Positions 15,443 through 30,780 of a stretch of 64,000 nucleotides of DNA are shown piece by piece (the stretch's first letter is position 1; each line of letters opens with the position of its first letter). The notes beneath the pieces are model-generated. The model saw only the letters and a program-made list of their open reading frames with translations, ran no database searches and had not been told where the DNA came from. The position numbers and the translations under genes were made by a program. Location of the stretch: IMG/VR virus record IMGVR_UViG_3300025133_009608, positions 1-64,000 of that record; one strand, written 5' to 3'. Source of the stretch: a virus.

Positions 15443-15500
15443 TTAACTTCCCTAAATAACTACAACCTAGTAGAAAAAATTAGCATTAAAATCAACAATT

Positions 15501-15908
15501 TTAATTAGCAATAGAGTCCGCAATCATAAAAGACCCGTAAGACATACCCATCCCGAGAACGAAGAATCCAGCATTTTCCCATGTGTTAAATCTATTTCGA
15601 CGATTGTACCGATCGATAAGATTCTGGTGCGTATTTGTAAGCTCTATATAATATGAGAGCTGCTCTCTCGTGCTATCCATATTTATTCTATATAGGTCTA
15701 TCTGCTGTGTTCTTATCGCATCCAGGGCGATATATTGCTCCAACTCTTTTTCTTTTATCTCTAACTCTTCGATTCTGCCCAAAAGTCCAGTGGCTTCTTC
15801 TATGGTAAAAACATAAGATTCTACCTCTAGAGTCGTTCCTGCCGGCATAACATCTCCGGCGTTTGCAGCGGAGATAGACAAAATAAATATAAAAATAGCC
15901 CTAAGCAT
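15501..15908 (-). CDS. Exported coiled-coil protein with C-terminal membrane segment (spanin-like)
   Basis: 135 residues from ATG 15908, overlapping the upstream gene by 8 bases. There is an N-terminal signal sequence (MLRAIFIFILSISAANA, cleavage expected after ANA), then a coiled coil over residues about 40-105 (LLGRIEELEIKEKELEQYIA) and a C-terminal hydrophobic segment (NAGFFVLGMGMSYGSFMIAD). Export signal plus periplasmic coiled coil plus a second membrane anchor is the layout of unimolecular spanins, which fuse inner and outer membranes at lysis. No lipobox was found. Context with the membrane proteins just upstream supports a lysis role; this is an inference. Confidence 0.45.
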   Translation of the reverse strand: MLRAIFIFILSISAANAGDVMPAGTTLEVESYVFTIEEATGLLGRIEELEIKEKELEQYIALDAIRTQQIDLYRINMDSTREQLSYYIELTNTHQNLIDRYNRRNRFNTWENAGFFVLGMGMSYGSFMIADSIAN

Positions 15909-16101
15909 CGATTTCTATCCGGTTATCCTCTTCCGTGTATTCTACGAAATCTGGATTTACATGCGCTTTTAAATCATTTATATTTATAAGCAGATACTCA
16001 GTTCTATTTGCGGCGGACTTATCAATTGCAGAATTTAGCAAATCCTCCATTCCCTTTGTCATTCCACTTTCTTCTTTTAGTTTTAATAATTTTTCGTACA
16101 T
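15901..16101 (-). CDS. Small helical protein in lysis-like cluster, unknown function
   Basis: 66 residues starting at ATG 16101, directly after the stop of the upstream gene and overlapping the downstream one. Mostly charged alpha-helix (MYEKLLKLKEESGMTKGMED) with an acidic C-terminus (YTEEDNRIEID). No signal peptide or membrane segment. The tight packing indicates cotranslation with the membrane proteins around it. No family recognised. Confidence 0.5.
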   Translation of the reverse strand: MYEKLLKLKEESGMTKGMEDLLNSAIDKSAANRTEYLLININDLKAHVNPDFVEYTEEDNRIEIDA

Positions 16102-16461
16102 TTAAAATCCCCTATCGTCAAAGAACTCGTCCAGCTCCTCGTTAGAAATATCTTTTTTCGGCTCTATCGCATCTAGAGCTTCGAGTTGCTTTCTGATTTC
16201 AGACTCTCTTTCTTCTAGAGTTCTTATTTTACTCTCATTGAGATTAATATCTTTTTGTTTTTGCTCAATCTTTATTTCGGTCCTTACTTTTTCAAGCTCT
16301 AGTTCTAGTATTTTTCTTGAATTTGAGCTATTCCGAAAAATAAAAACCGCCACAAAGCCTACAACTCCGATTATTGCGGCGACTATAAGCTTTACTTTCG
16401 CAGACAATGAGCAAACAGCCTCCCAAGCGAGCGAAAAAAATCCGCTATCATCCTTGCTCAT
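16102..16461 (-). CDS. Membrane-anchored coiled-coil protein (inner-membrane spanin-like)
   Basis: 119 residues from ATG 16461, overlapping the 3' end of the upstream holin-like gene by 14 bases. One transmembrane helix (VKLIVAAIIGVVGFVAVFIF, residues about 23-42) is followed by a long coiled coil (residues 50-95, rich in Glu, Lys and Leu) and an acidic tail (NEELDEFFDDRGF). This N-in, single-anchor plus coiled-coil layout is that of Rz-type inner-membrane spanins. With the exported coiled-coil protein two genes downstream it could form a spanin pair. Other membrane scaffolding roles are possible. Confidence 0.45.
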   Translation of the reverse strand: MSKDDSGFFSLAWEAVCSLSAKVKLIVAAIIGVVGFVAVFIFRNSSNSRKILELELEKVRTEIKIEQKQKDINLNESKIRTLEERESEIRKQLEALDAIEPKKDISNEELDEFFDDRGF

Positions 16462-16723
16462 CTTGGCCCTCTTTCGCCTTCGGCGGCGCTTCGTCTTCTT
16501 CGTATTTTTTATCTGTCCATCTCCTGGTCACATATGCCGAAAATGTTGCCGCCAAGTAGGCTGTCATCGTCGCGGCCTCCATTGGCTGAAAGCTGATGTC
16601 AAAATCAGAATAAGCAATTCTTCCAAATGTGGCTAATAAAATATTAAACGTAACCACTCCAAATGCTATTAGCGCGAATGTTAGCATTGCATCTTTTTTT
16701 CCACTTGTGTTCTTAACCCACAT
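16448..16723 (-). CDS. Two-helix membrane protein, candidate holin
   Basis: 91 residues from ATG 16723 with AAGGAGG upstream. Two hydrophobic segments are visible, one at residues about 13-33 (MLTFALIAFGVVTFNILLAT) and one around 50-66 (ATMTAYLAATFSAYVTRRW), followed by a charged, hydrophilic C-terminus (KKYEEDEAPPKAKEGQDEQG). Small size, two membrane spans, charged tail and linkage to spanin-like genes suggest a holin that permeabilises the inner membrane. No endolysin is seen next to it, so the assignment is by architecture and context only. Confidence 0.45.
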   Translation of the reverse strand: MWVKNTSGKKDAMLTFALIAFGVVTFNILLATFGRIAYSDFDISFQPMEAATMTAYLAATFSAYVTRRWTDKKYEEDEAPPKAKEGQDEQG

Positions 16724-16734
16724 ATCTTTCCTCC

Positions 16735-18729
16735 TTATGCGTTGAATGAAAACGGAAATTGATACCCAACATCTGTTTTATCCAGTCTTTTTAATTTAAG
16801 CTTTTGCCGCGTAAAGTGACGATAAAATAACTTATCCTTTGTAACGTCCAATACTTCATAGATATATTCTATATCGTCATTAAAATCGAACCTAACGATC
16901 AAATCTCTATCGCGGACTGCTGGGGCCGGAAGCGTCCAGCACTGTGGCTCGTACGACTGCTCTAGATGAGCATGGGCGCCGAGCTTAAGATCTTCGGTTG
17001 TATCTCCGAACATAACCATTAGGCGGCGATCCTCTCTTCTCCTATTCTCAAACTGATCAAACCCTCCTACATATCCGGTCCCATAGCACAACTTGCATCC
17101 CTTTGTTTTTGGATGATTTCTTCTGGAGGTCGAGCAGCTACAGGTCGCCCCCTCCCACATTCTCCGAAGAAGAATTACCGGCTCTCCGGTCTGGTCGAGC
17201 AGCACCTCCTCTCTATTTAGCATTCTATCAAATATGTTCATCCCCCTCATGCCGTTGAACTCTCCGCCCAAGTAGCTTCCGCAGTCTGAATTATTTTTGC
17301 CCTGAAGAATATTCTGAGGAATTGCCTGATGATATCCGCAAAAATCAAATCCTTGAAAGAATTTTTGATCATTATCCGTATAGTCCGTAACAACCAGTCC
17401 AACGTTATCCACCTCTCTTCCGCTGAGAACTCCCTCATAATGTGGAGTTGCCATGACGATAACCGTATTACTGTCCTGACAGGCCAAAAACATCTTTACA
17501 GAGTCCCCGCTCAGGTATATGCCGGGACTCGTCCCGTTCAGCCCCCGACCTCCGGTTGGCACCAAAAATGAAGTAGCAGTTTTGGCTGTATATTTTATGA
17601 CCTCTGAGGAGTTTATAATCAAATTACCACTGGACGGATATCCATCTGTGGAGTCAACATTTATAATTGTATCATCTTCAACAGTTAGCTCTGATATGAC
17701 TACCTGCGCAGGAATCAGATAAAGCCCATCTGCTGCAACCTCCATCTCCTCCAGGAGCAGCGTCCCCCTAAAGGCCTCTAGAGCTCTAACCGCGAAGCTC
17801 TGAGTTAAGCCGGGAGTGAATCCCGCAACAGTTGCGGAGCTAACTGTAGATGCTGCAATATATTTTGGAGCAGAATCAAAAATTTCAAGTCTAGAACTAT
17901 TTTGATATATTAACGCAAAACTATCGCCACGATAGGACCTAGAAATTGGCTTGTACCACTCTAACTCCATCTCTGTCCCCTTTCCTGTGCAAGAAGCCTT
18001 CTTTATTCCCTGATCCCTTCCAACAAAGGAAACCTGCGGAAATACAGATGGCAATATCGCAGATGGTAAGGCAATCGAAAAATCAACCTTTCCTATTTTC
18101 TTATTACCAGAGAGATCCTGAACCGAGTAGCCAAGAACGTAGCTCCCCGACCTAAGCGACTCTTTCGGCTCTATTCGTATTGACACACCATTTGTTATTT
18201 TTCTAATTTCGGAAAGCTCCCCGTCGAATTGGGCCTCGAACTCCCCTCCCTTCATCACGTCTAATTTGTTTAAAAATATGTTTACAGAAGACTCATCTAC
18301 ATCATCGATTGTATCTGAAAATTGCAAAAACAATACCTGATCTGATTTTAAGATATCTCCAGACTTTGGAGATGAAATCTCTAGCATTGGCTCTGCACGT
18401 ACGGTTCTGAATAGATAGGATGTATTAAAAAATTTTCCGTTCAGATCCTGGACCTGAACCTGAACCTTGATCGCCTCTCCTGTTTTAAATTCTTCCTCAG
18501 GGTGGATTACTATTTCTACATTTTCACCATCAAACAGTATATCGGAGTGGCCAGCGTCAAACCCGTCTTTAAATTCGAGCTGATCGACCGCCAGCTTTCC
18601 GGAAATAATCACTGCGATCGAAGATGTGTCAATTCCACTTCCATCGTCAACTATCGTTAACTCTATTAGTGAATCTAAATCTACAAGCTTCTCGCCCTCT
18701 GCTGGCGACTGCCCCGCTATAGACAACAT
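16735..18729 (-). CDS. Virion protein with Ig-like/FN3-like domains and C-terminal Cys-rich connector domain
   Basis: 664 residues from ATG 18729 behind GGGAGG. Residues 1-220 hold two bacterial Ig-like domains (SPAEGEKLVDLDSLIELTIV, then ISSPKSGDILKSDQVLFLQF), followed by an FN3-like stretch (about 240-330) and a beta insert. The C-terminal part has a CSC-x12-CKLCYGTGYVGGF cluster (residues about 530-555) like the zinc-binding C..C.GTGxxGG motif that I know from phage head-tail connector or head-closure proteins, then a beta domain ending KTDVGYQFPFSFN. The likely role is a decorated neck or head-tail joining protein. The Cys motif and domain order are visible; the exact role is inferred. 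Confidence 0.6.
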   Translation of the reverse strand: MLSIAGQSPAEGEKLVDLDSLIELTIVDDGSGIDTSSIAVIISGKLAVDQLEFKDGFDAGHSDILFDGENVEIVIHPEEEFKTGEAIKVQVQVQDLNGKFFNTSYLFRTVRAEPMLEISSPKSGDILKSDQVLFLQFSDTIDDVDESSVNIFLNKLDVMKGGEFEAQFDGELSEIRKITNGVSIRIEPKESLRSGSYVLGYSVQDLSGNKKIGKVDFSIALPSAILPSVFPQVSFVGRDQGIKKASCTGKGTEMELEWYKPISRSYRGDSFALIYQNSSRLEIFDSAPKYIAASTVSSATVAGFTPGLTQSFAVRALEAFRGTLLLEEMEVAADGLYLIPAQVVISELTVEDDTIINVDSTDGYPSSGNLIINSSEVIKYTAKTATSFLVPTGGRGLNGTSPGIYLSGDSVKMFLACQDSNTVIVMATPHYEGVLSGREVDNVGLVVTDYTDNDQKFFQGFDFCGYHQAIPQNILQGKNNSDCGSYLGGEFNGMRGMNIFDRMLNREEVLLDQTGEPVILLRRMWEGATCSCSTSRRNHPKTKGCKLCYGTGYVGGFDQFENRRREDRRLMVMFGDTTEDLKLGAHAHLEQSYEPQCWTLPAPAVRDRDLIVRFDFNDDIEYIYEVLDVTKDKLFYRHFTRQKLKLKRLDKTDVGYQFPFSFNA

Positions 18730-18762
18730 CTTACCTCCCGTTCCTCAAAAAGAGGCTTTCTA

Positions 18763-19224
18763 TTAATAGATATCTTGATCCCAATCTGCCGATAACACTC
18801 CGGATATATTTAGGGCCAAAAGATATCTGTAATCTAAATTGTCTACCGTTCTATACTGACTTATCTGATCTCCAGAAATCGCATATACTTTATCCCCACT
18901 TTCAAAATAGCCAAACCCCTGACACCCTGGGGACTCTCCTGCAATCTGGTGATAATTTATTCTCGGAACAACTATCGAGTCTATGGCTTTGTTTAAAAAC
19001 AAATGCACTGCCTTTTTTATTTTTAATGCATCCTTCCCAAGATAGAATAGATCTGATTCTTCTAGATCATCCACAGATATATCTTCTATATTAAGATTCA
19101 ATTGAGAGTTAATAACCAAAGAATCTTCAACGGAAATCATCGAGATGAGGGTTCGCATTTTTATAATAGACGAAATTGTTACTGAGCCTGGTAGCTCTAC
19201 AATTATATATCTAAAATTTGCCAA
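18763..19224 (-). CDS. Tail/neck region protein, unknown function
   Basis: 153 residues; the best start is TTG 19224 with AGGAG ten bases upstream. The product opens with a beta strand (NFRYIIVELPGSVTISSIIK), has an acidic middle (NIEDISVDDLEESDLFYLGK) and ends with LSADWDQDIY. Placed just before the connector-like gene, it may be a head-tail joining or tail terminator protein, but no family is recognised. A TACTAATAAT-like variant lies about 25 bases upstream. Confidence 0.5.
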   Translation of the reverse strand: MANFRYIIVELPGSVTISSIIKMRTLISMISVEDSLVINSQLNLNIEDISVDDLEESDLFYLGKDALKIKKAVHLFLNKAIDSIVVPRINYHQIAGESPGCQGFGYFESGDKVYAISGDQISQYRTVDNLDYRYLLALNISGVLSADWDQDIY

Positions 19225-19263
19225 CCGTAACCGCTCCTACTATATGGGCGATTATTAGCTGTG

Positions 19264-19755
19264 CTAATCTGTCAATTCTCTAAGTTCTTCCTCTTTTTTC
19301 TCGCGGTCACCTTTGGGATAATCATGATGATCCATCAGATCTTCGATATACTCTGTCATTTCCGCATCTGTTTTTGACACAGAGTCAAACTCTATTTGTC
19401 GCTGGAATGCTGCAACTTCTGATTCTTTGTCTAAGTAATTATCAGCACTATCGTCTATATTCGATCCCTCAGAAATGTGCTGCATTACATGTACCATTTC
19501 ATGGATCACGTACCTCATCATGATGTCAAAATCTTTGTCGATCAAAAGAGGGTTTAGCCTTATTGAGCCGGATACCGTCTTTGCCGTTACGTCCATATCC
19601 TCAAACTCAATCGGGACGGCAGTCAATATGTCAAGACTCTCTTTTGCCTCTTTGCAAATATCTTTTGCTATTTCATCTACCAAGAGAGATGCTCGAATTT
19701 CAATTAGAGCATCCATTTTTCTTTTAAGCGTAAAGTTCTTTCTGTTATTGCTCAT
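19264..19755 (-). CDS. HExxH putative zinc metallopeptidase, cytoplasmic
   Basis: 163 residues from ATG 19755, overlapping the upstream small gene. A zincin-type motif is present at residues 85-89 (H-E-M-V-H) in the context YVIHEMVHVMQHISEG, and a candidate third ligand lies downstream in DKESEVAAFQRQIEF (residues 109-123). N-terminal residues 1-45 are helical and there is no signal peptide. The C-terminus is very acidic and charged. The arrangement resembles minimal MA-clan peptidases. Its substrate could be a virion protein or, if it enters the periplasm with other lysis factors, the cell wall; neither is shown. Confidence 0.5.
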   Translation of the reverse strand: MSNNRKNFTLKRKMDALIEIRASLLVDEIAKDICKEAKESLDILTAVPIEFEDMDVTAKTVSGSIRLNPLLIDKDFDIMMRYVIHEMVHVMQHISEGSNIDDSADNYLDKESEVAAFQRQIEFDSVSKTDAEMTEYIEDLMDHHDYPKGDREKKEEELRELTD

Positions 19756-19972
19756 CTTCCCTGGTCCCCTCTGAGAATAATGTCTCTAAATCCTCGTGTT
19801 CCCTTTTTACTGCTAATTTTGCCAAATATGAGCTCTGATTTAGCATTGAGACTCTTTCTTCTGCTTTTTTAATAAGATTCTCCAATCCCAAAAGCTCAAA
19901 TTGAATCTCATCGAAGTCCCGTGGAGACCTAAATCCGCAATATTCCATGCGACAATCATCCGGCTTTCTCAT
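19745..19972 (-). CDS. Small coiled-coil protein, unknown function
   Basis: 75 residues from ATG 19972 with GGGAGG upstream. Nearly all helix, with a heptad-like region (LLGLENLIKKAEERVSMLNQ) and two Cys in the first 12 residues. It overlaps the metallopeptidase-like gene by 11 bases, suggesting coupled translation. Nothing more can be said from the sequence. Confidence 0.45.
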   Translation of the reverse strand: MRKPDDCRMEYCGFRSPRDFDEIQFELLGLENLIKKAEERVSMLNQSSYLAKLAVKREHEDLETLFSEGTREDEQ

Positions 19973-20029
19973 TCTGCGCCTCCCCTCTTGTGTTGTTATT
20001 TTACTACATTAATGTTAAATTATTTATCT

Positions 20030-21733
20030 TTAAATATTTGGAAGAACCCTATTGATAGCCACGGCCCCATAACTATAGCCGCCGAGATACTGAGACTGCA
20101 CCCATGAAGAGCCATTATCAGATGACCTAAAGATTCTATCGTCAGTAACTGCTATCCATATTCCGTCGTCATAGGCAACAAACGACGGGTCATTAGATAT
20201 ATTTCCTGAGCCAATATTTCCGTTTTGAACCCAAGTTGCCCCATTGTCCGTACTTGTATGATTCCAGCCGTAGCTGCTACCAACGGCAACCCATGTATTA
20301 TTTCCTCCATACTGGAAGTCCGAGGTCCAGGAAAGCTGGTCAACCGGGGCTATGGGCGTCCAATTGTTACTATCCAGATCTCCGGCCTGACACCGGAATC
20401 CGCCGCCAAGGCCAGTGAATACGATCCAGACGTCGTTCCCATACTGAACCTGCTTTCTATATTGCCGGCCCTCATAGCCTATTGGAATTGTATATGACAG
20501 CACCCACGTTGCGCCATCATCTATTGATTTAAAAATAGTATGAGAGTTTCCATCGTGGGAAACTGCAACCCAACTCCCAGCCCCATCAGTTGATAGCGAC
20601 TTATCTCCGATCGTAAGATTCGGCCCCGGAGGGCTGTACCCGGAAGTATCAATGAGAGTGTTTCCGCCATCTATAGATCTATCTATTCCTCCATCTCCAA
20701 TAAATACCCAAACGCCATTCCCATACTTAACGTCATTTGCGCCATTCGGATTTCCTGACCCCAAATATTCAATTTCAGACCAACTATTGATATCAGTGGG
20801 GTCAGAACTTCTAACGACCTCTCTTATGGACGAAGAATTATCGGGCTCTCTTGTGATGATCCATAAGTCATTATCACCCTCATCCTTTCCAAGTGCTATA
20901 CCCGTTATTTTCCCCTGATGCAGGGGACTGGGAATAGTATAGTTCGACCAAGAGGCTCCATCAGTAGCGTAAGAGATTTTGCCATAATGAGCTGCCGCGA
21001 CCCATAGCGGCGAATGAGACGATAAGTCTACCCAATTGCTCAACTCAGTGGTTTCCGCATTCTCACCAGACGCTCTTCCCGCGATCCACCTTCCAGTAGA
21101 TGCGTCAAAGTCGATATTGAATACCTGAGAGCTTCTAAGGCTAGCCGAAATATCTCCATCTTGCTTTGACACTCCCCAAGAAGAGGATGCTGCGGCAAGA
21201 GTTGTTCCTCCGGCTATGTCTCTGATGACAAACATAGTTCCCTGATCGGCTCCCAACGCAATATCTATGACGGCAGAGCCGGCACCAGCATCGAGACGCT
21301 CAGTTTCTGCTCCGCCGGCAGATGGGAAAGTATAGACCTTGCTGCCGGAGCTAACAATTCTATGATCATTCCCATTCCCACGAGAGACTCGGTTTACCTT
21401 ATCTCCATTTGGGTCTGTAAACATTAGAGTGAAGCCTGACGCAACGGCATTTGGAGCAACAAGCACCTCATATACCTTGCCTGCGGAGGTTCCCACAAGA
21501 AGCTTCCCATCTTCTACATAATCTAATGCAGTTGGAACTCCATCAATCCCTGTTGCGACTGAGTCATATGCAATATATGAATTCCAATCTTCCAATGCTG
21601 ATGACATGTATATCTTCGTGGTTTCTCCGTCTTTCTTTAGAAAGCAACACGAATATCCGCCTGCGGAATCTGTTCCGGCCTCAAACTCTGCTATGCTGCT
21701 AAGCTGCCCCTCGAATGTCCAGTCTCTACTCAT
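20030..21733 (-). CDS. Asp-box beta-propeller tail protein, copy 1
   Basis: 567 residues from ATG 21733 (TTTAGGA upstream). Sialidase-type Asp-box repeats (S/T-x-D-x-G-x-x-W) recur: SIDDGATW, STDNGATW, SSDNGSSW, with related repeats elsewhere (SYATDGASW), which indicates a beta-propeller. Residues 1 to about 245 are encoded by DNA that looks identical to the start of the second copy at 23669-25348, while the rest diverges sharply. Such propellers are seen on virion tips and could bind glycans or other receptors. No catalytic triad of sialidases is evident. It lies beside a secreted protease and near glycosyltransferases, in the host-interaction part of the genome. Confidence 0.65.
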   Translation of the reverse strand: MSRDWTFEGQLSSIAEFEAGTDSAGGYSCCFLKKDGETTKIYMSSALEDWNSYIAYDSVATGIDGVPTALDYVEDGKLLVGTSAGKVYEVLVAPNAVASGFTLMFTDPNGDKVNRVSRGNGNDHRIVSSGSKVYTFPSAGGAETERLDAGAGSAVIDIALGADQGTMFVIRDIAGGTTLAAASSSWGVSKQDGDISASLRSSQVFNIDFDASTGRWIAGRASGENAETTELSNWVDLSSHSPLWVAAAHYGKISYATDGASWSNYTIPSPLHQGKITGIALGKDEGDNDLWIITREPDNSSSIREVVRSSDPTDINSWSEIEYLGSGNPNGANDVKYGNGVWVFIGDGGIDRSIDGGNTLIDTSGYSPPGPNLTIGDKSLSTDGAGSWVAVSHDGNSHTIFKSIDDGATWVLSYTIPIGYEGRQYRKQVQYGNDVWIVFTGLGGGFRCQAGDLDSNNWTPIAPVDQLSWTSDFQYGGNNTWVAVGSSYGWNHTSTDNGATWVQNGNIGSGNISNDPSFVAYDDGIWIAVTDDRIFRSSDNGSSWVQSQYLGGYSYGAVAINRVLPNI

Positions 21734-21779
21734 GTTTTTTCCTAAATGAATATAGTATATCGTTATTAATTAGTATTAA
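20995..21779 (-). repeat. Direct repeat, copy 1 (5' part of propeller gene plus leader)
   Basis: About 785 bp that appear identical to 24610-25413 apart from a 19-bp tandem duplication in the other copy and differences near the far end. The block covers the shared N-terminal module, the start codon, the leader and the last codons of the gene upstream: the metalloprotease ends VNTN here and the glycosyltransferase ends INTN at the other copy. Confidence 0.9.
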
Positions 21780-22350
21780 CTTTACGCAATTCTTCTGACC
21801 GCCTAATGTATTCGAAGCTCCCCACCCCAGATGACCCGGAACCCCCACTTTCCCACTCTGCGTTCATAATATGATAACTCGAGGCAGAGTGCAGCCAGCC
21901 AAGTGCATGACCAATTTCGTGCTCCAACACCCTCGGCCTTCTTATGTGCCGGTTCTGCATATATATTTTTGCATAGGCCATGGATCTTGTCCCCGTTGTT
22001 ACCGCGCACATTGTGCCGGCTATCTTTGAGAAGTCAAACCCACTCTCTGGCTCCATGATTAATATCTCTCCATCCTGCGGAACTCCCAGGCATGATGGCG
22101 ATGTATCATCAACTATGATATTCCCGAACCGATAACCAAGCCTCTCCCAATATCCTGTAGCCCGACGAACATCGACAGGCCGAACGGCTGAAGTATTACA
22201 TATTCTTATATCCGGCGGAGCCTCCCAGTAAAACTCCAGCTCCGGCCTGCCGTCAAATACTGTTCTTGAAAACTCAGCGGGGCGAGCGGGGAAGAAAAAT
22301 CCAGAAATAATTGGAATTTGAAGCAATAATATTAAAAACCCGACTCTCAT
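21766..22350 (-). CDS. Secreted matrixin-like zinc metalloprotease
   Basis: 194 residues from ATG 22350. A signal peptide (MRVGFLILLLQIPIISG) is followed by a compact domain holding the full metzincin motif HEIGHALGWLH at residues 144-154 and a downstream Met-turn (YHIMNAEW, Met162). The order and length resemble M10-type matrixins such as bacterial matrixin-like proteases. Four Cys outside the signal peptide (C51, C87, C115 and possibly others) could form disulfides. A matrixin with an export signal is unusual in a phage structural region. It might trim the host surface, aid lysis or release, or modify the propeller proteins beside it. The catalytic motif is visible; the target is unknown. 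Confidence 0.8.
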   Translation of the reverse strand: MRVGFLILLLQIPIISGFFFPARPAEFSRTVFDGRPELEFYWEAPPDIRICNTSAVRPVDVRRATGYWERLGYRFGNIIVDDTSPSCLGVPQDGEILIMEPESGFDFSKIAGTMCAVTTGTRSMAYAKIYMQNRHIRRPRVLEHEIGHALGWLHSASSYHIMNAEWESGGSGSSGVGSFEYIRRSEELRKVNTN

Positions 22351-22377
22351 GCTCTAAGCTGCAATATTAGTCAATAA

Positions 22378-23286
22378 CTAAATAATCTTTCTCTGCCTGA
22401 GGTGCCTCATTCTCAATACAGCGGGACTTCCAGAGGACATATTTGTATATGTTCCAAAACTCTGAGGGCCAGGGCGGATAGAGTTTTTCATAAACTTCAA
22501 CCTCTCCCTGTACGATGTCATCCAATTTTGATACTGAGCCTGCAAAAAATCCCCAAGAGCAGGAGGCTGATACGATAGACCTCCGTCGGATATGGTAAAA
22601 TCTCTCCCCTTTTCAATTAAGGCCTGTGATGCCAGAGATACAACTAGCGCTCCCTCGACTATCGCATGTGAGAATGTTTTATATATAATCTCATCGCCAA
22701 ACGTGTACGATGTAAAAAATGGAGTCATATTAAACTCGGACAGCGCCTGACAGAGAAATGTCGCAAGAATCTCGTCGGAGAATACGTTGCAATCTTCCAT
22801 AATCATATCTCCATAACCATCCGTCATGAAGGACCCATAATCATCTCTTTTCGGCTTCTTGCCTCCGGATCGGGTCCTGGCTTTTAAATATTTGAGCAAA
22901 ACATTCAATCCAACTAATTCGGACTCTGAAAAATCGAACTCAACCTCATCGCCGAGGGTTACCGAGCCGGCAACTGCGGATGAATCATCAGTTACTAAAA
23001 ATTTAAACTCATTAGAAAGAGTGGCCTCATCTACAGTGGCGGTCCACACATCTGTCCAGAGCCCTTTGTCTGCCGCGCTGTCTACATCATAGGAATAAAC
23101 ATAAAGCCCAGTGTCCTCTCTAGAAACGCCGGTCGACGTAGAGGCCACTATTATATTCCCATCCGGATCTACTATCTTTATCTCAGGAGTTGAATCTGCA
23201 TCCATTTCTAAGCCATCTGGGCCGTAATATTGAATGCTTAATTCTACTTCTTCGTCTCGAATTGCTTTATTTCTGTTATTTGCCAT
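22378..23286 (-). CDS. Virion connector-like protein with N-terminal Ig-like domain
   Basis: 302 residues; ATG 23286 overlaps the upstream stop (TAATG). Residues 1-100 form an Ig-like domain (ELSIQYYGPDGLEMDADSTP, LYVYSYDVDSAADKGLWTDV). The rest resembles a phage structural family that I recognise by ALSEFNMTPFFTSYTFGDEI, EGALVVSLASQALIEKGRDF and YQPPALGDFLQAQYQNW, usually encoded near head-tail connector genes. It probably contributes to the neck or tail. The Ig-like part resembles that of the small gene directly upstream, with which it is translationally coupled. Confidence 0.6.
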   Translation of the reverse strand: MANNRNKAIRDEEVELSIQYYGPDGLEMDADSTPEIKIVDPDGNIIVASTSTGVSREDTGLYVYSYDVDSAADKGLWTDVWTATVDEATLSNEFKFLVTDDSSAVAGSVTLGDEVEFDFSESELVGLNVLLKYLKARTRSGGKKPKRDDYGSFMTDGYGDMIMEDCNVFSDEILATFLCQALSEFNMTPFFTSYTFGDEIIYKTFSHAIVEGALVVSLASQALIEKGRDFTISDGGLSYQPPALGDFLQAQYQNWMTSYRERLKFMKNSIRPGPQSFGTYTNMSSGSPAVLRMRHLRQRKII

Positions 23287-23627
23287 TATCTCGACTCCGC
23301 TCTCGGGACGGTCTTTGAGCAGCCAGAAGAGCTATTTGCTGCAGATTTGACCGTAAAGTTTTCAATAGAAACATACGTCTCCCCGTCTAACTCTACTGAA
23401 ATTATAACTATATAATCCCCAACTGCCTTGGGAGAATATCTATACTCATAAGTGCCGAGGCCTGCGTCAACCTCAATCATGGGGTCCGGGAAGCCAGAAT
23501 CCGCCACACCACTTGGGCCAACTACCTTTTCAATCATTGGTGAGGATGTCGATATCGCAACCCCGCCATCTGTTATCTGAAACGGGATTCTTACCGTTGA
23601 GCCGAGATTATAACTTCCTGATGCCAT
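23286..23627 (-). CDS. Ig-like domain protein
   Basis: 113 residues from ATG 23627. A single beta-sandwich domain of bacterial Ig type (LGSTVRIPFQITDGGVAIST, GTYEYRYSPKAVGDYIVIIS) followed by a short Ser/Cys-containing tail. It resembles the N-terminal domain of the next gene, to which it is joined by a TAATG overlap. The arrangement suggests a separately encoded copy of the same surface domain that could decorate the virion. The function is inferred. Confidence 0.55.
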   Translation of the reverse strand: MASGSYNLGSTVRIPFQITDGGVAISTSSPMIEKVVGPSGVADSGFPDPMIEVDAGLGTYEYRYSPKAVGDYIVIISVELDGETYVSIENFTVKSAANSSSGCSKTVPRAESR

Positions 23628-23668
23628 TAGAGCCCCTGCCTCCAGTTAAATAACTAATATTAATATGC

Positions 23669-25348
23669 CTAAAACGGCTTGACTTTGTTGAACTCGACGG
23701 AGTGAAATGCTCTATTTGGATCCGAGTCATGAACGGAGGTCCACGTGGCACCAAGATCCGTTGATTTTGAGATATTGCCTGTCTTAGACACTGCCACAAT
23801 TGTTGAAACACCATCACTAGCTAATGAATATGCGATGTCGGTACCCCCGCCAACAGTTACAATATCTGAAACCTGTGTCCAGGATGAAGCATTGTTCGTT
23901 GACTTGAAAACATCTCGGCCGTCGCCAGATGCAAACCACGTGCTGCCTGTATGATGGCATAAACTATTGCATCGCTGGTTAGGTGTGAAATTGTCCGACC
24001 ATGAGGAGTCGTCTCTGGCGTTGTCGCTTGTAATATTTGATGCTTGTGCGACGTATATGGCATTAGTATAATATGTTGCGACCCAGAAACCATTTGCATA
24101 CTCTATTCCATGAACTTCATCACTGAATGGTATTGTTTTCTTCCAAGTAATTCCATCGTCCCAAGATTTCCATATACCGTCTGATCGCGTGCCCTGCATC
24201 CAGAAGCCGGCGCCATCTGTGGCGATGCATGTTGCTTCTGTCCCTGCATTCATTGTATGCTGCGTCCAGGTTGCTCCGTAATCGGTCGACCTCATAACTC
24301 CATTACCCGGATAGTTTCCTATGATGGCTGTTCCGTTCGCGCCATACTCAATGGCCTTTGATCTATGATCACCGGACATATTTATCATTGTCCACGAGTT
24401 TATGCCGGCAGTGGGGTCTGCGGAATACATAAATTCGCTTGGGGTTGTGTTGCTAGTCGAAGTCCACCTTGAAGCATACCACCGATCTCCGCCATTGGCA
24501 TCTTTTCCATATGACAAATCATAATAATCGTTAGTAGTGCCGGCAGGAGTTTGGTAGTTTGTCCAGGTCGACGCGTCAGTAGACGTCGCGACTGTCCCGT
24601 TAGTCCCTACCGCGACCCATAGCGGCGAATGAGACGATAAGTCTACCCAATTGCTCAACTCAGTGGTTTCCGCATTCTCACCAGACGCTCTTCCCGCGAT
24701 CCACCTTCCAGTAGATGCGTCAAAGTCGATATTGAATACCTGAGAGCTTCTAAGGCTAGCCGAAATATCTCCATCTTGCTTTGACACTCCCCAAGAAGAG
24801 GATGCTGCGGCAAGAGTTGTTCCTCCGGCTATGTCTCTGATGACAAACATAGTTCCCTGATCGGCTCCCAACGCAATATCTATGACGGCAGAGCCGGCAC
24901 CAGCATCGAGACGCTCAGTTTCTGCTCCGCCGGCAGATGGGAAAGTATAGACCTTGCTGCCGGAGCTAACAATTCTATGATCATTCCCATTCCCACGAGA
25001 GACTCGGTTTACCTTATCTCCATTTGGGTCTGTAAACATTAGAGTGAAGCCTGACGCAACGGCATTTGGAGCAACAAGCACCTCATATACCTTGCCTGCG
25101 GAGGTTCCCACAAGAAGCTTCCCATCTTCTACATAATCTAATGCAGTTGGAACTCCATCAATCCCTGTTGCGACTGAGTCATATGCAATATATGAATTCC
25201 AATCTTCCAATGCTGATGACATGTATATCTTCGTGGTTTCTCCGTCTTTCTTTAGAAAGCAACACGAATATCCGCCTGCGGAATCTGTTCCGGCCTCAAA
25301 CTCTGCTATGCTGCTAAGCTGCCCCTCGAATGTCCAGTCTCTACTCAT
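23669..25348 (-). CDS. Asp-box beta-propeller tail protein, copy 2
   Basis: 559 residues from ATG 25348. Its first roughly 245 residues look identical to copy 1, then it switches to an unrelated propeller sequence. Asp-box motifs STDYGATW, SWDDGITW, STNNASSW and STDLGATW are visible, with STDASTW as a looser example. The shared half probably holds the virion anchor and the first blades; the variable half would carry binding specificity. It sits directly after two glycosyltransferase genes. The near-identity of the shared DNA indicates recent duplication or ongoing gene conversion. Confidence 0.65.
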   Translation of the reverse strand: MSRDWTFEGQLSSIAEFEAGTDSAGGYSCCFLKKDGETTKIYMSSALEDWNSYIAYDSVATGIDGVPTALDYVEDGKLLVGTSAGKVYEVLVAPNAVASGFTLMFTDPNGDKVNRVSRGNGNDHRIVSSGSKVYTFPSAGGAETERLDAGAGSAVIDIALGADQGTMFVIRDIAGGTTLAAASSSWGVSKQDGDISASLRSSQVFNIDFDASTGRWIAGRASGENAETTELSNWVDLSSHSPLWVAVGTNGTVATSTDASTWTNYQTPAGTTNDYYDLSYGKDANGGDRWYASRWTSTSNTTPSEFMYSADPTAGINSWTMINMSGDHRSKAIEYGANGTAIIGNYPGNGVMRSTDYGATWTQHTMNAGTEATCIATDGAGFWMQGTRSDGIWKSWDDGITWKKTIPFSDEVHGIEYANGFWVATYYTNAIYVAQASNITSDNARDDSSWSDNFTPNQRCNSLCHHTGSTWFASGDGRDVFKSTNNASSWTQVSDIVTVGGGTDIAYSLASDGVSTIVAVSKTGNISKSTDLGATWTSVHDSDPNRAFHSVEFNKVKPF

Positions 25349-25413
25349 GTTTTTTCCTAAATGAATATAGTATATCTAAATGAATATAGTATATCGTTAT
25401 TAATTAGTATTAA
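24610..25413 (-). repeat. Direct repeat, copy 2, with 19-bp internal tandem duplication
   Basis: Counterpart of 20995-21779, offset by 3615 bases in the shared coding part. In the leader, CTAAATGAATATAGTATAT (plus strand) occurs twice in tandem at about 25357-25394, but once in copy 1. Confidence 0.9.
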
Positions 25414-26542
25414 TTTTACTGATTATTGCCAATGCACTATAAACTTCGGCCTCATAGGCTGTATAATTATTTGGATTATCAACACTATGTTTCCAAATAA
25501 ACTTTTTTGATTTTTCCTCGTATTCTTCTATATTTGCATCATGCTCTTTGACCGCCCTGAGCAGCGCATTAGCTCCGGCATCAGCATCAAAATCTGGATA
25601 AAAGTATCCAACGCCCTCGTCCCTCAGGAATTCTGAATTATGTACGAATGGATGTCCAAGATATAATGCATCAAGATATAAATAATTCAATCCATTCTCC
25701 CACTGGTGCGACAAAACAATATCAGTATACTTGCTAGAAAACATTGGGAACGAAAACCTGCCCTCAAATGAGACTATCCCGGCCCTCGTCGGTGACATTT
25801 TATTTGCCAATATTTTAAACTTCTTTAGCTCCCTAACGCTTGATGTATTTGTTATATATATTTCTTTTATTTGATCTTTCGCTCTAGGATATGCATTGTG
25901 CAATATTATCATTGGAATAATAGACATTTTTACAATATTTAAATTTGGCTCAAATACAGAAATTCTCTTATCTTTTCCGGGAGCATACCTTTTGATCGGC
26001 CTATTTTGGGAGCCAAAATATGAATCCACAAATAACGAGCTCCAAATATGAGGCATAACTATAAAGTTATTACAATTATAATCATACTTTAAAAAGCTCT
26101 TGCAAGTCTTAACGTGCTGTGGTGTGGTCCAGATGGCGTCGAAAAAAATCCCAGCGGCATTGCTCGTATACAACTCTCGCTTTACCATGGCTTCGATATT
26201 AAATACATATTTATTGCCCATTTCATACTTTACCAGCGCGCCGCCATTCGCCCGGACCTTTGTTGCAAATGATATTGATATTTGAACCAAAACCTCAATC
26301 AATACGTCGATCTTCCCTTCATATTTTTTTGCTTGCCGAACTCTATCCGCAGGAACACCATATTTTTCCCAATTACCCCTTATCGGCTCGGAGTTTTCTT
26401 CGGAAATAAAAAATACGTCGAATTCTGGAATTTTGCTTAATGTATTATATAAAAATATAGCATTTTGCCCTGCACCATTTGAAAACAGCGATTCATTAAG
26501 AGATATTTCATTTATAGTTAAAGCTATTTTAATTTTTTTCAC
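25400..26542 (-). CDS. DUF2827-type glycosyltransferase-like protein, copy 2
   Basis: 380 residues with GTG start at 26542, one base after the upstream stop. The N-terminus (KIKIALTINEISLNESLFSN, GAGQNAIFLYNTLSKIP) and the C-terminal acceptor-like block (HQWENGLNYLYLDALYLGHP, FVHNSEFLRDEGVGYFYP) match the DUF2827 family, a GT-B-like group predicted to transfer sugars. It is a diverged paralogue of the gene just upstream. In phages such enzymes may glycosylate virion proteins or alter host surface sugars. Its place directly before the propeller gene suggests a link to that protein. Donor and acceptor are unknown. Confidence 0.6.
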   Translation of the reverse strand: MKKIKIALTINEISLNESLFSNGAGQNAIFLYNTLSKIPEFDVFFISEENSEPIRGNWEKYGVPADRVRQAKKYEGKIDVLIEVLVQISISFATKVRANGGALVKYEMGNKYVFNIEAMVKRELYTSNAAGIFFDAIWTTPQHVKTCKSFLKYDYNCNNFIVMPHIWSSLFVDSYFGSQNRPIKRYAPGKDKRISVFEPNLNIVKMSIIPMIILHNAYPRAKDQIKEIYITNTSSVRELKKFKILANKMSPTRAGIVSFEGRFSFPMFSSKYTDIVLSHQWENGLNYLYLDALYLGHPFVHNSEFLRDEGVGYFYPDFDADAGANALLRAVKEHDANIEEYEEKSKKFIWKHSVDNPNNYTAYEAEVYSALAIISKINTN

Positions 26543-26543
26543 T

Positions 26544-27623
26544 TTAGAAGTGCCTTTGAATAAATGACTCTAATAATTGGGCATACCCATCTATATTCTT
26601 TTTATTATCTGGGCTAAAATCATATATTTTTTCAGCGTCCCTTTCCATCATTTCTTTGTAATTATCCGGATGGCTGCTGACAGCCTCTTTTAGCTTTTCC
26701 GCTCCCATTCCAATATTTATATCATTATAATAATATCCATGATCTTCAAAAGATTTACTATTGTGAATGAATGGAATGCCGAGATACATGGCCTCTAATT
26801 GGAGGTAATTTAATTCATTATAAAATTGATGGGATATAATAGAGCCAAACATGCGCTTTCGAAGCATGTGTGCAAGGGTCCACCTTCCCTCGAATGACAT
26901 CTCGCCTGCCGTCACTATATTTAGCATTTTCGCAAATTCTGCAAACCCATTATTATCCTTTAGCTTTTCTCCGCCGAGGACGTATGCCGAGATACCCTTG
27001 GAGTACTTATTGTAATAATCTTCACAAATTAGCATTGGAGCATGGCACATCTTAACAAAGTAGAGGTTGCTCTCCAAGATCCCCACGTGCTCGATGTTCC
27101 AGGATGGATCATATTTCAAATCTTTCTGCATTAGTGACTCCGGCGGCTGCCATACATATGGAGCTATCTCTATATTTGTCTTCCTCATTGTCCGCAGCGC
27201 TTCTCGCGAGTGCTCAAAATGTGGGCTTATCCAGGTCTCATGATGGCGCGCCCGAAAAAACGCAGGAGCTTCTGGCTTGTATATTGTTAAGGCAGAATTT
27301 ATAAGGAAATTATTTCCATATTCTATAACTATAATTTTCCCGCCCGATTTCTCAAATATATTACTTCCATTTACCGACAATGAGTGAGCGACTTCGATTA
27401 TGATATCAAAATCACCTATTGTCTCAGTAGTTAGAAGTTCGATCTCATTTTCTCCTAATTTTTTTCCACCAATCTTTGTCGACTCAGAAACTAAGATTAT
27501 ATCAAATCCAGCTTTTTTTAATATATCAAATAATGTTAAAACATTCTGAGATATTCCACTTGCAAATAGTCTCCCATTATCTTTTGTTGTTATTCCTATT
27601 TTAGTATTTTTTGATATATTCAT
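26544..27623 (-). CDS. DUF2827-type glycosyltransferase-like protein, copy 1
   Basis: 359 residues; ATG 27623 overlaps the upstream stop (ATGA). The Rossmann-like N-terminus (TKIGITTKDNGRLFASGISQ, NVLTLFDILKKAGFDIILVS) and the C-terminal part (SHQFYNELNYLQLEAMYLGI, PFIHNSKSFEDHGYYYND) match the DUF2827 GT-B-like family. It shares the SFEGR and N-x-L-NYL motifs with the next gene. The pair, the small tail protein upstream and the propeller downstream form one tightly packed unit, so a virion-modifying role is likely. Specificity cannot be read from sequence. Confidence 0.62.
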   Translation of the reverse strand: MNISKNTKIGITTKDNGRLFASGISQNVLTLFDILKKAGFDIILVSESTKIGGKKLGENEIELLTTETIGDFDIIIEVAHSLSVNGSNIFEKSGGKIIVIEYGNNFLINSALTIYKPEAPAFFRARHHETWISPHFEHSREALRTMRKTNIEIAPYVWQPPESLMQKDLKYDPSWNIEHVGILESNLYFVKMCHAPMLICEDYYNKYSKGISAYVLGGEKLKDNNGFAEFAKMLNIVTAGEMSFEGRWTLAHMLRKRMFGSIISHQFYNELNYLQLEAMYLGIPFIHNSKSFEDHGYYYNDINIGMGAEKLKEAVSSHPDNYKEMMERDAEKIYDFSPDNKKNIDGYAQLLESFIQRHF

Positions 27624-27952
27624 TTTGCTACATACTCTATTGATATAATTGTGTGTGCCTCTGTAAATGTAGAGAATGGGTCGGCAGCGTAATCTCCCAG
27701 AAACACAACATTATTTGTTCCAAGCTCATCGTAATCTATTCCGATCGTCATATATAGGCCATTTAGAAAAAGGCTTGTAGTCTTTGGCTTAAAATCCACA
27801 GAGGTTCTGTACAAGTATTTTCCGTCCTCCACTTGCTCTGTTAAATTTTCAGACACAATAGTTGACCCAGCGCCTTGATATGATCTAACATCATCCCCAT
27901 ACTCTGAATCGGATGGTATCGTCTTTTTTCTGAATAGAGTGAGTGATGACAT
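27620..27952 (-). CDS. Small tail/fibre-associated beta protein
   Basis: 110 residues from ATG 27952, which overlaps the preceding stop (TGATG); an in-frame TTG one codon earlier is less likely. The C-terminal half (FKPKTTSLFLNGLYMTIGID, YDELGTNNVVFLGDYAADPF) is the strand-turn-strand pattern found at the tips or joints of many phage fibres (LNGL...G.DY...). It is encoded between the repeat fibre and the glycosyltransferases and may be a fibre tip or adaptor. The function is inferred. Confidence 0.5.
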   Translation of the reverse strand: MSSLTLFRKKTIPSDSEYGDDVRSYQGAGSTIVSENLTEQVEDGKYLYRTSVDFKPKTTSLFLNGLYMTIGIDYDELGTNNVVFLGDYAADPFSTFTEAHTIISIEYVAK

Positions 27953-28263
27953 CAAATATCCTTTAGCGCAGACAACAATATGTCTGTTGCGCTTCTGAGG
28001 TTTTTACCGTATTTCTTTCTTTGATCTTTTTGGGCAAACTTGTCGTCGCCGTCTATATAATTTTCCATAAAAAATTTAAACATTTTATGTGTATATTTTT
28101 TCTTTCTTTTTATCTCTAGTGTTTTCTCAGAATAAGCTTTAGACTTCTTTGTTCTTCGGAACTCTTCCGCCAGGCTTTCAATGGTTGAGTCATACCTTAT
28201 GCTGGCGGCCTCGACCGCTCGCTCCATACAGATGTCTCGCTTATCTTTAATGTAAATAGCCAC
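27952..28263 (-). CDS. Small basic helical protein, unknown function
   Basis: 103 residues with GTG start at 28263 behind GGGAGAG. Strongly basic and helical (RRTKKSKAYSEKTLEIKRKK), with Cys12 near the N-terminus. It overlaps both neighbours or nearly so, so it is part of the fibre-glycosyltransferase operon. No family recognised. Confidence 0.45.
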   Translation of the reverse strand: MAIYIKDKRDICMERAVEAASIRYDSTIESLAEEFRRTKKSKAYSEKTLEIKRKKKYTHKMFKFFMENYIDGDDKFAQKDQRKKYGKNLRSATDILLSALKDI

Positions 28264-28265
28264 GA

Positions 28266-28538
28266 CTACTCTCCCTGGGACTTGTATGCCTCAAGAAGAT
28301 GATCTAGGCCTTCCATTATCTCATCTATAACATCTCCGCGATATCTCATATCGCTTCTTTTCTCAATAGTCTCGAGCCACCCGGAAAACTCTCCGGAGAT
28401 GGATGTTTCGATTACCTCTTTCATGCAGTCGAGATACCCTCTAGTATATTCATCTTCCTCTCGAACTGATTCTCTAACTTCTTTTATGCTCTTAACGAAC
28501 GCTTCGAAGTGTTCGTTTACCTTGTCTATAGAACTCAT
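28266..28538 (-). CDS. Small acidic helical protein, unknown function
   Basis: I choose the internal ATG at 28538 because GGAGGGG lies five bases before it; the upstream in-frame ATG at 28550 has no site. This gives 90 residues beginning MSSIDKVNEHFEAFVKSIKE, nearly all helix with an acidic bias and a Cys in the middle. It is the first gene after the fibre terminator. No family recognised. Confidence 0.45.
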   Translation of the reverse strand: MSSIDKVNEHFEAFVKSIKEVRESVREEDEYTRGYLDCMKEVIETSISGEFSGWLETIEKRSDMRYRGDVIDEIMEGLDHLLEAYKSQGE

Positions 28539-28576
28539 AAGCCCCTCCATATTCGATGACTAAAAAATAATATAAA

Positions 28577-28602
28577 GGAGGGGGAGGAAACCCTCCCCCT
28601 CC
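28577..28602 (-). terminator. Strong rho-independent terminator after repeat fibre gene
   Basis: GGAGGGGGAGG and CCTCCCCCTCC form a perfect 11-bp GC-rich stem with a 4-base loop, followed on the coding strand by TTTATATTATTTTTT. It sits about 40 bases after the fibre stop codon. Confidence 0.9.
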
Positions 28603-28642
28603 AGGTTGGCCTGACTATAAAATAGCCCTACCTATGGAAGAA

Positions 28643-30721
28643 TTAACCCCACATTACAACGTAGTTCTCAACTGAATCTTCTAACTCTTCATCAAAGCGG
28701 ACGCGTCCAGTCGCGGCAACAACGTAGTCACCAGGATTCGCCACAAAGTTGAAGGCAGCAGCGGCTGCGTTATCGGCAAGCATACCTGCATTGGCATCTG
28801 TTTGGAGAATACCATTTCGGAATACACGAAGTTTTCCATAGAAATAGTTTCCATTAGCACCACCGAGATCAGTTCCAAGTCCTGCAATGTCGAACTCATC
28901 TTCGTCGGCACCATTTGGCCCTCCGTACACTGGAGCTCTCATCTCGTTCTTGGCGACCAAAGCGTCCATGTCACCCATGCGAATGTTCATAGAACTCTCA
29001 TCGTCATTGTGAACCTGAACAATGGATGCATCAGCAGAATCTCTAACTGACTCTTCAAGACTCAGACGAGTAGTGATAGAAAGATCACCAGAAGCGCGAT
29101 CGGTCTCTTCATTACCCAGACGAGTAGTAAGAGAAAGATCACCAGAGACTCTATTTGAAATCTCAGCGGTATCAACTGCAGCTAGAGAAACATCAGCAGA
29201 AGACCTGACTGACTCTTCCATACTCAGACGAGTAGTAAGAGAAAGATCACCAGAGACTCTATTTGAAATCTCAGCGGTATCAACTGCAGCTAGAGAAACA
29301 TCAGCAGAATCTCTAATTGACTCTTCGATACTCAGACGAGTAGTAAGAGAAAGATCACCAGAGACTCTATTTGAAACCTCATCGGTAAGGCCGCTCCCGG
29401 CGGCTGCAGCTAGAGAAGCATCAGCAGAAGACCTGACTGACTCTTCCATGCTCAGACGAGTAGTAAGAGAAAGATCACCAGAGACTCTATTTGAAATCTC
29501 AGCGGTATCAACTGCAGCTAGAGAAACATCAGCAGAAGACCTGACTGACTCTTCCATACTCAGACGAGTGGTAAGAGAAAGATCACCAGAGGTTCTCTCT
29601 GAAGCCTCGACGCTAACAAGTCCAGTGATTTCAGCGAGGTCTGCAATAATAACAAATCCCTTATCCTGGCCGGCCCAGCCGTTATAGTCATAGTTTCCAA
29701 CTCCAAGCCCAGTCATATATACGTACTGGTCCTTCTCCGCCTGAACGAAGTAGGCATCGCCTATGGACGCAGTCAAGTCAGCATTAACAGCCGCAATAGC
29801 AGCAGCTTGGTCGGCGACTGACGCCTTCCATTGGATACCAGAAGTAGTAGCGGTTTCCAGAGCAACAACACGTACCTGTAATGAGGCGTCCCCAGAGGAT
29901 CTATTCGACTCCTCACCGGAGATGCGAGTGCTCATAGAAATCTCATCGGCATTGTGAATCTGAACAATGGATGCATCAGCAGAATCTCTAACTGACTCTT
30001 CAAGACTCAGACGAGTAGTAAGAGAAAGATCACCAGAGGCTCTATTTGAAATCTCAGCGGTATCAACTGCAGCTAGAGAAACATCAGCAGAAGACCTGAC
30101 TGACTCTTCCATACTCAGACGAGTAGTAAGAGAAAGATCACCAGAGACTCTATTTGAAATCTCAGCGGTATCAACTGCAGCTAGAGAAACATCAGCAGAA
30201 TCTCTAATTGACTCTTCGATACTCAGACGAGTAGTAAGAGAAAGATCACCAGAGACTCTATTTGAAACCTCATCGGTAAGGCCGCTCCCGGCGGCTGCAG
30301 CTAGAGAGGCATCAGCAGAAGACCTGACTGACTCTTCCATGCTCAGACGAGTAGTAAGAGAAAGATCACCAGAGACTCTATTTGAAATCTCAGCGGTATC
30401 AACTGCAGCTAGAGAAACATCAGCAGAAGCGCTAACTGACTCTTCCATACTCAGACGAGCAGTAAGAGAAAGATCACCAGAGACTCTATTTGAAATCTCA
30501 GCGGTATCAACTGCAGCTAGAGAAACATCAGCAGAAGACCTGACTGACTCTTCCATACTCAGACGAGTAGTAAGAGAGCCATCGCCAGAATCAGCGTGTA
30601 GAATAGCGATGTCGATAGCCGGCTGAGCGGAAATCGCACCAGTGGATCCATCCTCTTGGAAGTGAGCGACTTTAAGCAAGGCTTGCTTAAAGACTATTTT
30701 TGTTTGTTTTGATATAGCCAT
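28643..30721 (-). CDS. Repeat-built tail fibre protein
   Basis: I choose ATG 30721 (AAGGAT upstream) over the upstream in-frame start at 30760, giving 692 residues beginning MAISKQTKIVFKQALLKV. Two arrays of a roughly 36-residue repeat (EISNRVSGDLSLTTRLSMEE then SVRSSADVSLAAVDTA) flank a unique beta domain (GIQWKASVADQAAAIAAVNA ... VYMTGLGVGNYDYNGWAGQD). About 11 repeats are present. A beta domain closes the C-terminus (GKLRVFRNGILQTDANAGML). The repeats have the look of a trimeric, coiled-coil or beta-spiral shaft. It is bounded by hairpins on both sides and likely forms a long side or whisker fibre. Confidence 0.75.
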   Translation of the reverse strand: MAISKQTKIVFKQALLKVAHFQEDGSTGAISAQPAIDIAILHADSGDGSLTTRLSMEESVRSSADVSLAAVDTAEISNRVSGDLSLTARLSMEESVSASADVSLAAVDTAEISNRVSGDLSLTTRLSMEESVRSSADASLAAAAGSGLTDEVSNRVSGDLSLTTRLSIEESIRDSADVSLAAVDTAEISNRVSGDLSLTTRLSMEESVRSSADVSLAAVDTAEISNRASGDLSLTTRLSLEESVRDSADASIVQIHNADEISMSTRISGEESNRSSGDASLQVRVVALETATTSGIQWKASVADQAAAIAAVNADLTASIGDAYFVQAEKDQYVYMTGLGVGNYDYNGWAGQDKGFVIIADLAEITGLVSVEASERTSGDLSLTTRLSMEESVRSSADVSLAAVDTAEISNRVSGDLSLTTRLSMEESVRSSADASLAAAAGSGLTDEVSNRVSGDLSLTTRLSIEESIRDSADVSLAAVDTAEISNRVSGDLSLTTRLSMEESVRSSADVSLAAVDTAEISNRVSGDLSLTTRLGNEETDRASGDLSITTRLSLEESVRDSADASIVQVHNDDESSMNIRMGDMDALVAKNEMRAPVYGGPNGADEDEFDIAGLGTDLGGANGNYFYGKLRVFRNGILQTDANAGMLADNAAAAAFNFVANPGDYVVAATGRVRFDEELEDSVENYVVMWG
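29025..29620 (-). repeat. Fibre repeat array, C-terminal set
   Basis: Five to six near-identical tandem units of about 108 bp, each encoding the SNRVSGDLSLTTRLS unit. Parts are nearly identical to the other array at 29960-30600, including the unique AAAAGSGLTD variant, which shows block duplication and not only unit expansion. Confidence 0.85.
29960..30600 (-). repeat. Fibre repeat array, N-terminal set
   Basis: About six tandem units of roughly 108 bp. The unit order, including the variant AAAAGSGLTD unit followed by an SIEESIRDSAD unit, is the same as in the C-terminal array, so one array was copied from the other. Confidence 0.85.
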
Positions 30722-30753
30722 AATATTTTTATCCTTTTTTATTATGTTTAAAA

Positions 30754-30780
30754 CCCACAAAGCCGTCTCGGCCTTATGGG
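30754..30780 (-). terminator. Hairpin before repeat fibre gene (terminator or leader hairpin)
   Basis: CCCATAAGGCCG and CGGCTTTGTGGG pair over 12 bp (two G-U pairs) around a 3-base loop and are followed on the coding strand by TTTTAAAC. It lies 33 bases upstream of the fibre ATG and about 160 bases after the previous gene. It may end upstream transcripts or shape the fibre mRNA leader. Confidence 0.6.

Follow-up and report, generated by a model that had tools for sequence, protein, structure and literature searches.

The window analysed here is 64,000 nucleotides long and comprises positions 1 to 64,000 of a 316.7-kb (316,664-base) viral record, IMGVR_UViG_3300025133_009608, from a jumbo myovirus. 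It carries two genes, A and B, which begin with the same half (the head) and continue into different second halves (the tips). They occupy two variable positions, slots 2 and 1 respectively, on either side of a conserved gene pair. The features of the locus, with the evidence for each, are as follows.

20030..21733, minus strand: gene A, the head followed by Asp-box propeller tip A, 567 aa (ORF list; full-length homologues in L141 and L142 at 39% identity)
20995..21733, minus strand: head module of gene A, 739 nt the same as in gene B (direct comparison)
20030..20994, minus strand: tip A, an Asp-box/BNR beta-propeller of the L141/L143 clade (tree, 100/99; AlphaFold2; Foldseek, Ycf48/GH74)
23669..25348, minus strand: gene B, the head of gene A followed by propeller tip B, 559 aa, a putative chimera (ORF list; tree)
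24610..25348, minus strand: head module of gene B, identical to that of gene A (direct comparison)
23669..24609, minus strand: tip B, an Asp-box/BNR beta-propeller of the clade of L103-L107 and G008 (tree, 99/97; tblastn, about 37-42% identity; AlphaFold2)
21734..21785, minus strand: shared leader with the last five codons of the metalloprotease gene, KVNTN-stop (direct comparison)
25349..25419, minus strand: shared leader with the last five codons of the DUF2827a gene, KINTN-stop, with one substitution and an extra 19-bp unit (direct comparison)
25357..25395, minus strand: 19-bp tandem duplication in the gene B leader, 2.1 copies, single in gene A (TRF score 78)
21766..22350, minus strand: slot 2 gene for a matrixin-like metalloprotease, located upstream of gene A (Pfam M10, E 6e-4, under its cut-off)
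22378..23627, minus strand: g302 (22378-23286) and g113 (23286-23627), the conserved pair that separates the two copies (g302 homologue 50-77% identical in relatives)
25400..27623, minus strand: slot 1 pair of DUF2827 genes, located upstream of gene B (Pfam PF10933, E 4e-93 and 2e-62)

Base-by-base comparison of genes A and B revealed that the first 739 coding nucleotides from the ATG, encoding 246 amino acids that end in ...SSHSPLWVA, were identical, and that past this point the ungapped DNA identity fell immediately to about 50% and then to 10-35%. The identity of the heads is far above chance. It also extended upstream, across the leader and into the last five codons of two unrelated genes, one for the metalloprotease (RKVNTN-stop) and one for a DUF2827 protein (SKINTN-stop). 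Over the full tract (20995-21785 against 24610-25419, about 791 bp by its length in copy A) the copies differed by one substitution, at position 21780, and by a further 19-bp tandem unit present in copy B. The original prediction of about 785 identical bp, including leader, start codon and the last codons of each upstream gene, was thus nearly exact. When the whole 316.7-kb record was searched with the head DNA, only two matches were found, each 100% over 734 bp. A leader 20-mer had no further occurrence in the record even with 3 mismatches allowed, which ruled out the leader as a repeated phage promoter. A promoter scan of the leader gave a site count not above that of shuffled sequences, and an Rfam search gave no match.

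The second halves had been described as unrelated. We found instead that the two tips are homologous Asp-box propellers (about 27-32% identity), which aligned from end to end at 26.7% identity with an E value of about 1e-14. Both contained the Asp-box-like motifs (S-x-D-x-G-x-x-W) of Asp-box/BNR propellers, and AlphaFold2 modelled both as all-beta propellers with a pLDDT of about 75-90 across most of the tip. The confidence of the models was high only from about residue 241, with blocks at about 83-88 after the junction and at 27-50 before it; the low confidence of the head model is due to the head having almost no relatives. Foldseek matches of the tip B model were Ycf48, GH74 and BNR proteins, and the family profile together with the tip models resembled Asp-box/BNR propellers such as Ycf48 and GH74; the joint therefore coincides with the first strand of a propeller that is complete in itself. 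In predicted fold and profile the tips are alike to Ycf48 (PF14870), to the GH74 xyloglucanases and to sortilin, whereas genes A and B themselves lay below Pfam detection, a Pfam search giving no match for either. The description of both genes as beta-propeller genes therefore holds for the second half and does not extend to the poorly modelled head, which had no sequence match to any known fold.

Scans of viral contigs and genome contigs with the head protein found no relatives. The head relatives in L141-L143 (27% identical) were reached solely through the tip A profile and, together with about 50 aa in G013/L102, were the only ones found by sequence. A match to A3 was trivial, since A3 includes the head itself. 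We also considered that the head might itself be made of Asp-box blades, and a profile comparison of the head with the tips showed no similarity and left this idea unsupported. In L141 and L143 the first approximately 110 aa were the most variable stretch of the head, a pattern that, as far as these sequences indicate, is at odds with a simple 'constant anchor'. The two gene A relatives (L141:4287-5954 and L143:4305-5549) were mosaic within the head, where nt 60-340 were 58-77% identical and the flanks and tip mostly 85-100%, an exchange that is the reverse of the one in A and B. In G013 (L102:1-1152) the first approximately 50 aa of the head came after a 330-aa domain without a family match; the gene with this fragment is truncated by the contig end and lies at a place equivalent to slot 1.

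In a maximum-likelihood tree of the tips, tip A grouped with L141 and L143 (100/99) and tip B with L103-L107 and G008 (99/97). A search with tip A retrieved L141, L142 and L143, its only outside relatives, which were 46% identical in the tip and in which the head was also present; these three records, two of which (L141 and L142) are nearly one record, constitute the evidence for the A-type architecture. B-type tips were retrieved by a tip-profile search from L103-L107 as well as from G008, a relative of 222 kb whose major capsid protein is 86% identical. All of these outside relatives of tip B were without the 246-aa head. Most began with a short unrelated N-terminus of about 40 aa, several of these with KINGI-type repeats, while L106 had almost none, and the same (H)SPLWVAVG-type motif marks where they join the tip. 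When the phage collection was searched by tblastn, one weak match was obtained, in a Vibrio phage, to a B-type tip.

Because tips A and B fall in different clades, they are not products of a recent duplication, and the head alone is shared. Furthermore, the head accompanied A-type tips in other phages while the B clade was headless, indicating that a fusion of head and tip occurred. The simplest account of the sequences is that gene B would be a lineage-specific chimera, in which the leader and head of gene A were placed on the tip of another adhesin family. The tip tree and the distribution of the head both point to a chimera with its joint at about 21000 (24610 in copy B), as had been proposed. 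The proposal that the 5' half was recently duplicated or underwent gene conversion is supported by the 739 identical nucleotides and the single substitution in 791 bp. The direction of copying, from A to B, we infer from the architecture and not from the identical sequence, on the basis of three records of which two are almost the same. Taken as a pair, the genes show domain mosaicism, with 246 aa at 100% identity and the remaining 313-321 aa at 27-32% identity and in different clades.

Two observations concern such propeller genes in other phages. At L101:11600-11630, and in the same place in L108/L109, the B-type propeller gene of G008 and of a second contig shifts frame at a GGGG immediately after WVAVG; since this frame change exactly at the joint between N-terminus and tip was seen in two separately assembled contigs, it is perhaps a real break or a frameshift site rather than a random error. 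In addition, a phrog_36119 gene came after propeller genes of both types, A in L141/L142 and B in L104 and L105 (L142:5976-6809 and L105:6929-8131, as well as L104 and L107). The A- and B-type genes look as if they might be alternatives at a single locus of a donor phage group.

The slots were compared among about two dozen records related by their major capsid protein. The conserved order was MCP ... (g103, g111), slot 1, g113, g302, slot 2, gene75/g163 and g664; in the present record gene B stands behind the DUF2827 pair in slot 1 and gene A behind the metalloprotease in slot 2. A propeller in either slot was not found in any of the about two dozen related records. The joint between metalloprotease and gene75 was present without gene A in G008 and L030, the DUF2827 pair was present without a propeller in L124, L126, L127, L128 and L130, and the propeller of G008 sits elsewhere, on the opposite strand. 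As the slots of the relatives were propeller-free, both genes are gains of this lineage. The g302 homologue was present in nearly every related record with a readable slot region, and the DUF2827 relatives examined showed no connection to propellers. Judged by their length and by where the terminase lies, the contigs that are near-identical by terminase (L094, L095) apparently stop short of the A/B locus, and a search of them for A and B gave no match.

Other variation was seen in this part of the genomes. Two hypervariable cargo slots surround g113-g302 (22378-27623 in the window, and L121-L138), and the DUF2827 pair of slot 1 lies on the opposite strand in several relatives. At 28643-30760 the window encodes a fibre-like protein of 54/108-bp repeats, in about 13 copies that are up to 95% alike, and at 7121-10672 and 10676-15442 there are adjoining genes that are apparent paralogues, whose counterparts in L121 are 56% identical over the first 252 aa. 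Adjoining structural genes of 288 and 622 aa at L049:8828-11708 have N- and C-terminal parts in common, and the 622-aa gene contains an inserted domain of LamG-like appearance, a further example of fibres that diversify by modules.

The two tracts are set apart by one substitution and one indel over 791 bp, so their last common sequence must be recent. Both differences fell within the 52 bases that lie outside the coding sequence of gene A, which has a chance of about 0.4% if both were random. This hints, weakly, that the coding part may have been homogenised later than the leader; the hint is weak because tandem duplications of short units are unstable and constraint on the leader is perhaps lower. 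Homogenisation would be expected if A and B were old paralogues that arose by an ancient duplication of the whole gene, with tips that diverged under selection and heads that were repeatedly homogenised by concerted evolution. The confinement of the identity to head and leader, and the placement of both differences, as would result from homogenisation that reached the coding part last, are consistent with such a history, and within-gene recombination was seen also between L141 and L143. However, the tips are not sisters, each grouping with tips of other phages, no other member of the B clade has the head, and both genes are missing from the relatives of this phage, so that nothing supports a pair of long standing in this lineage. 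We consider such an ancient origin unlikely. It is very unlikely that the second head was created by the assembly, either by bringing together heads of two strains or by reuse of one copy by the assembler. The 767-base identical run is longer than common short-read k-mers and inserts, and the contig sequence alone does not allow the 5' flanks to be phased with the tips, both of which would permit such an error. Yet the copies have two different upstream flanks, two different tips and distinct leaders (one substitution and the 19-bp duplication), the reading frames are intact on both sides and there is no N in the window. Within one genome, a head present once cannot have two neighbours upstream and another two downstream, and a mixture of two strains would still require each head to exist.

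The original prediction also held that the arrangement exchanges tips on a common base and may thereby create receptor-binding diversity by recombination. In such a mechanism the identical heads would act as recombination handles for changing tips and thereby host range. About 3.6 kb separates the two heads, which are repeated in direct orientation. At such a distance, long perfect direct repeats are recombinogenic in phages, and genes with shared N-termini have recombined inside one phage in the Ackermannviridae (PMC11414711). Nevertheless, the homology lies only 5' of the tips and the far flanks are unrelated (gene75 versus g113). Moving a tip from one locus to the other needs homology on the far side, and its absence makes routine tip swapping unlikely. 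A crossover between the heads would join DUF2827a, head and tip A, and would remove tip B, g113, the conserved g302 and the metalloprotease. This product is probably unfit, because g302 is kept in nearly all relatives with readable slots. No recombinants were seen: among 2.9 million viral contigs, no other record was found to combine this head with a third tip. A DGR target was ruled out by the absence of the reverse transcriptase PF00078 from the 316.7-kb record (controls were positive; the record may be incomplete), and an invertible switch of the Mu/Gin type by the absence of inverted repeats flanking the genes in 15000-30000 and of the serine recombinase PF00239 from the record. Tip exchange as a working generator of diversity was thus not borne out, and we regard it as highly improbable; the arrangement looks like the outcome of one domain-shuffling event and not like a switch. 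It also seems quite unlikely that the locus maintains a stable display of two tips, in which ongoing gene conversion would keep the bases identical, g113-g302 would select against collapse by deletion, and either locus could take up new tips while the old specificity is retained.

Genes A and B have the major capsid/fibre genes on one side and further structural genes on the other, and the structural neighbourhood in the window includes the MCP, portal, terminase and sheath. In L103, L105 and G008 the B-type tip starts where a tail-fibre gene (phrog_9942, phrog_18345) ends or overlaps that gene's end, and this adjacency favours a role as adhesins. The nearest named match is in a T4-like Vibrio phage, where the gene two positions before it carries an annotation of similarity to the long tail fibre distal subunit. 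That match is itself annotated as similar to an outer capsid protein, the A-type gene of L142 lies among DNA-metabolism genes (SSB, UvsX, exonuclease) and not in a structural block, and the closest fold, Ycf48, is an assembly factor; these points would suit propeller proteins that act inside the cell or decorate the capsid. The position of B-type tips right after tail-fibre genes in three phages, and of genes A and B amid capsid/fibre and further structural genes, speaks against such a role, to which we attach a low probability. The best reading, in which we have reasonable but not strong confidence, is that A and B are two virion adhesins that came to be on one base by domain shuffling, gene B being the later hybrid. 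Both proteins would be located on the virion and expressed simultaneously, and the binding function would reside in the tips, which probably bind a surface glycan or protein.

In this domain-shuffling account, gene A (base and tip A) would be the older architecture, known from another phage group. Its leader and base, with the last five codons of the preceding gene, would have been copied into the second cargo slot 3.6 kb away, and the copied base would have been fused in frame to a tip of a different family at the conserved SPLWVA motif that starts the propeller. The identity of the bases may reflect very recent copying, or gene conversion may have kept them identical since. If both proteins are made, they would have one attachment or assembly interface in common and would provide two binding specificities per particle.

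In invertible tail fibres such as those of the phage Mu G segment, a constant head is combined with alternative tips. Unlike in that system, the repeats of A and B are direct, both genes are complete, and neither inverted repeats around the genes nor the invertase family in the record was found. Ackermannviridae TSP1-4 (CBA120, S117) are alike in that one phage has several RBPs with related 5' ends and different receptor-binding parts, and in this family a fifth tail-spike gene has been added, giving a tsp4-tsp5 chimera through shared 5' ends in one phage (PMC11414711). Those TSPs carry XD/TD N-terminal domains and branch on each other, whereas genes A and B, which have no sequence match to these domains, have 100% identical bases, Asp-box propellers as tips and two separate loci. 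They are not tail spikes of the Ackermannviridae type: no Pfam or PHROG match to XD/TD was obtained, and the tip is a propeller, not a beta-helical depolymerase. Smug et al. 2023 described mosaics in which a shared fragment of at least 90% identity is combined with a different partner domain, most typically in tail fibres and spikes (PMC10684548). The A/B pair shows the same shared-fragment pattern, with the difference that a single genome holds both partners, which makes it possible to name the donor of the shared half. The remainder of A and B is homologous, whereas the domain-based definition in that study asks for different domains (PMC10684548).

Domain mosaicism of RBPs is already well known, and A and B are a clean new case of it, with donor and hybrid in one genome. 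It is rare for a hybrid and its probable donor to be found together in one genome with outside relatives of both tips known. The order of events can consequently be read: which half moved, that the joint lies at the SPLWVA start of the propeller, and which slots were used. The case shows a way in which a jumbo phage may gain a second specificity without rebuilding the part by which its adhesin is attached.
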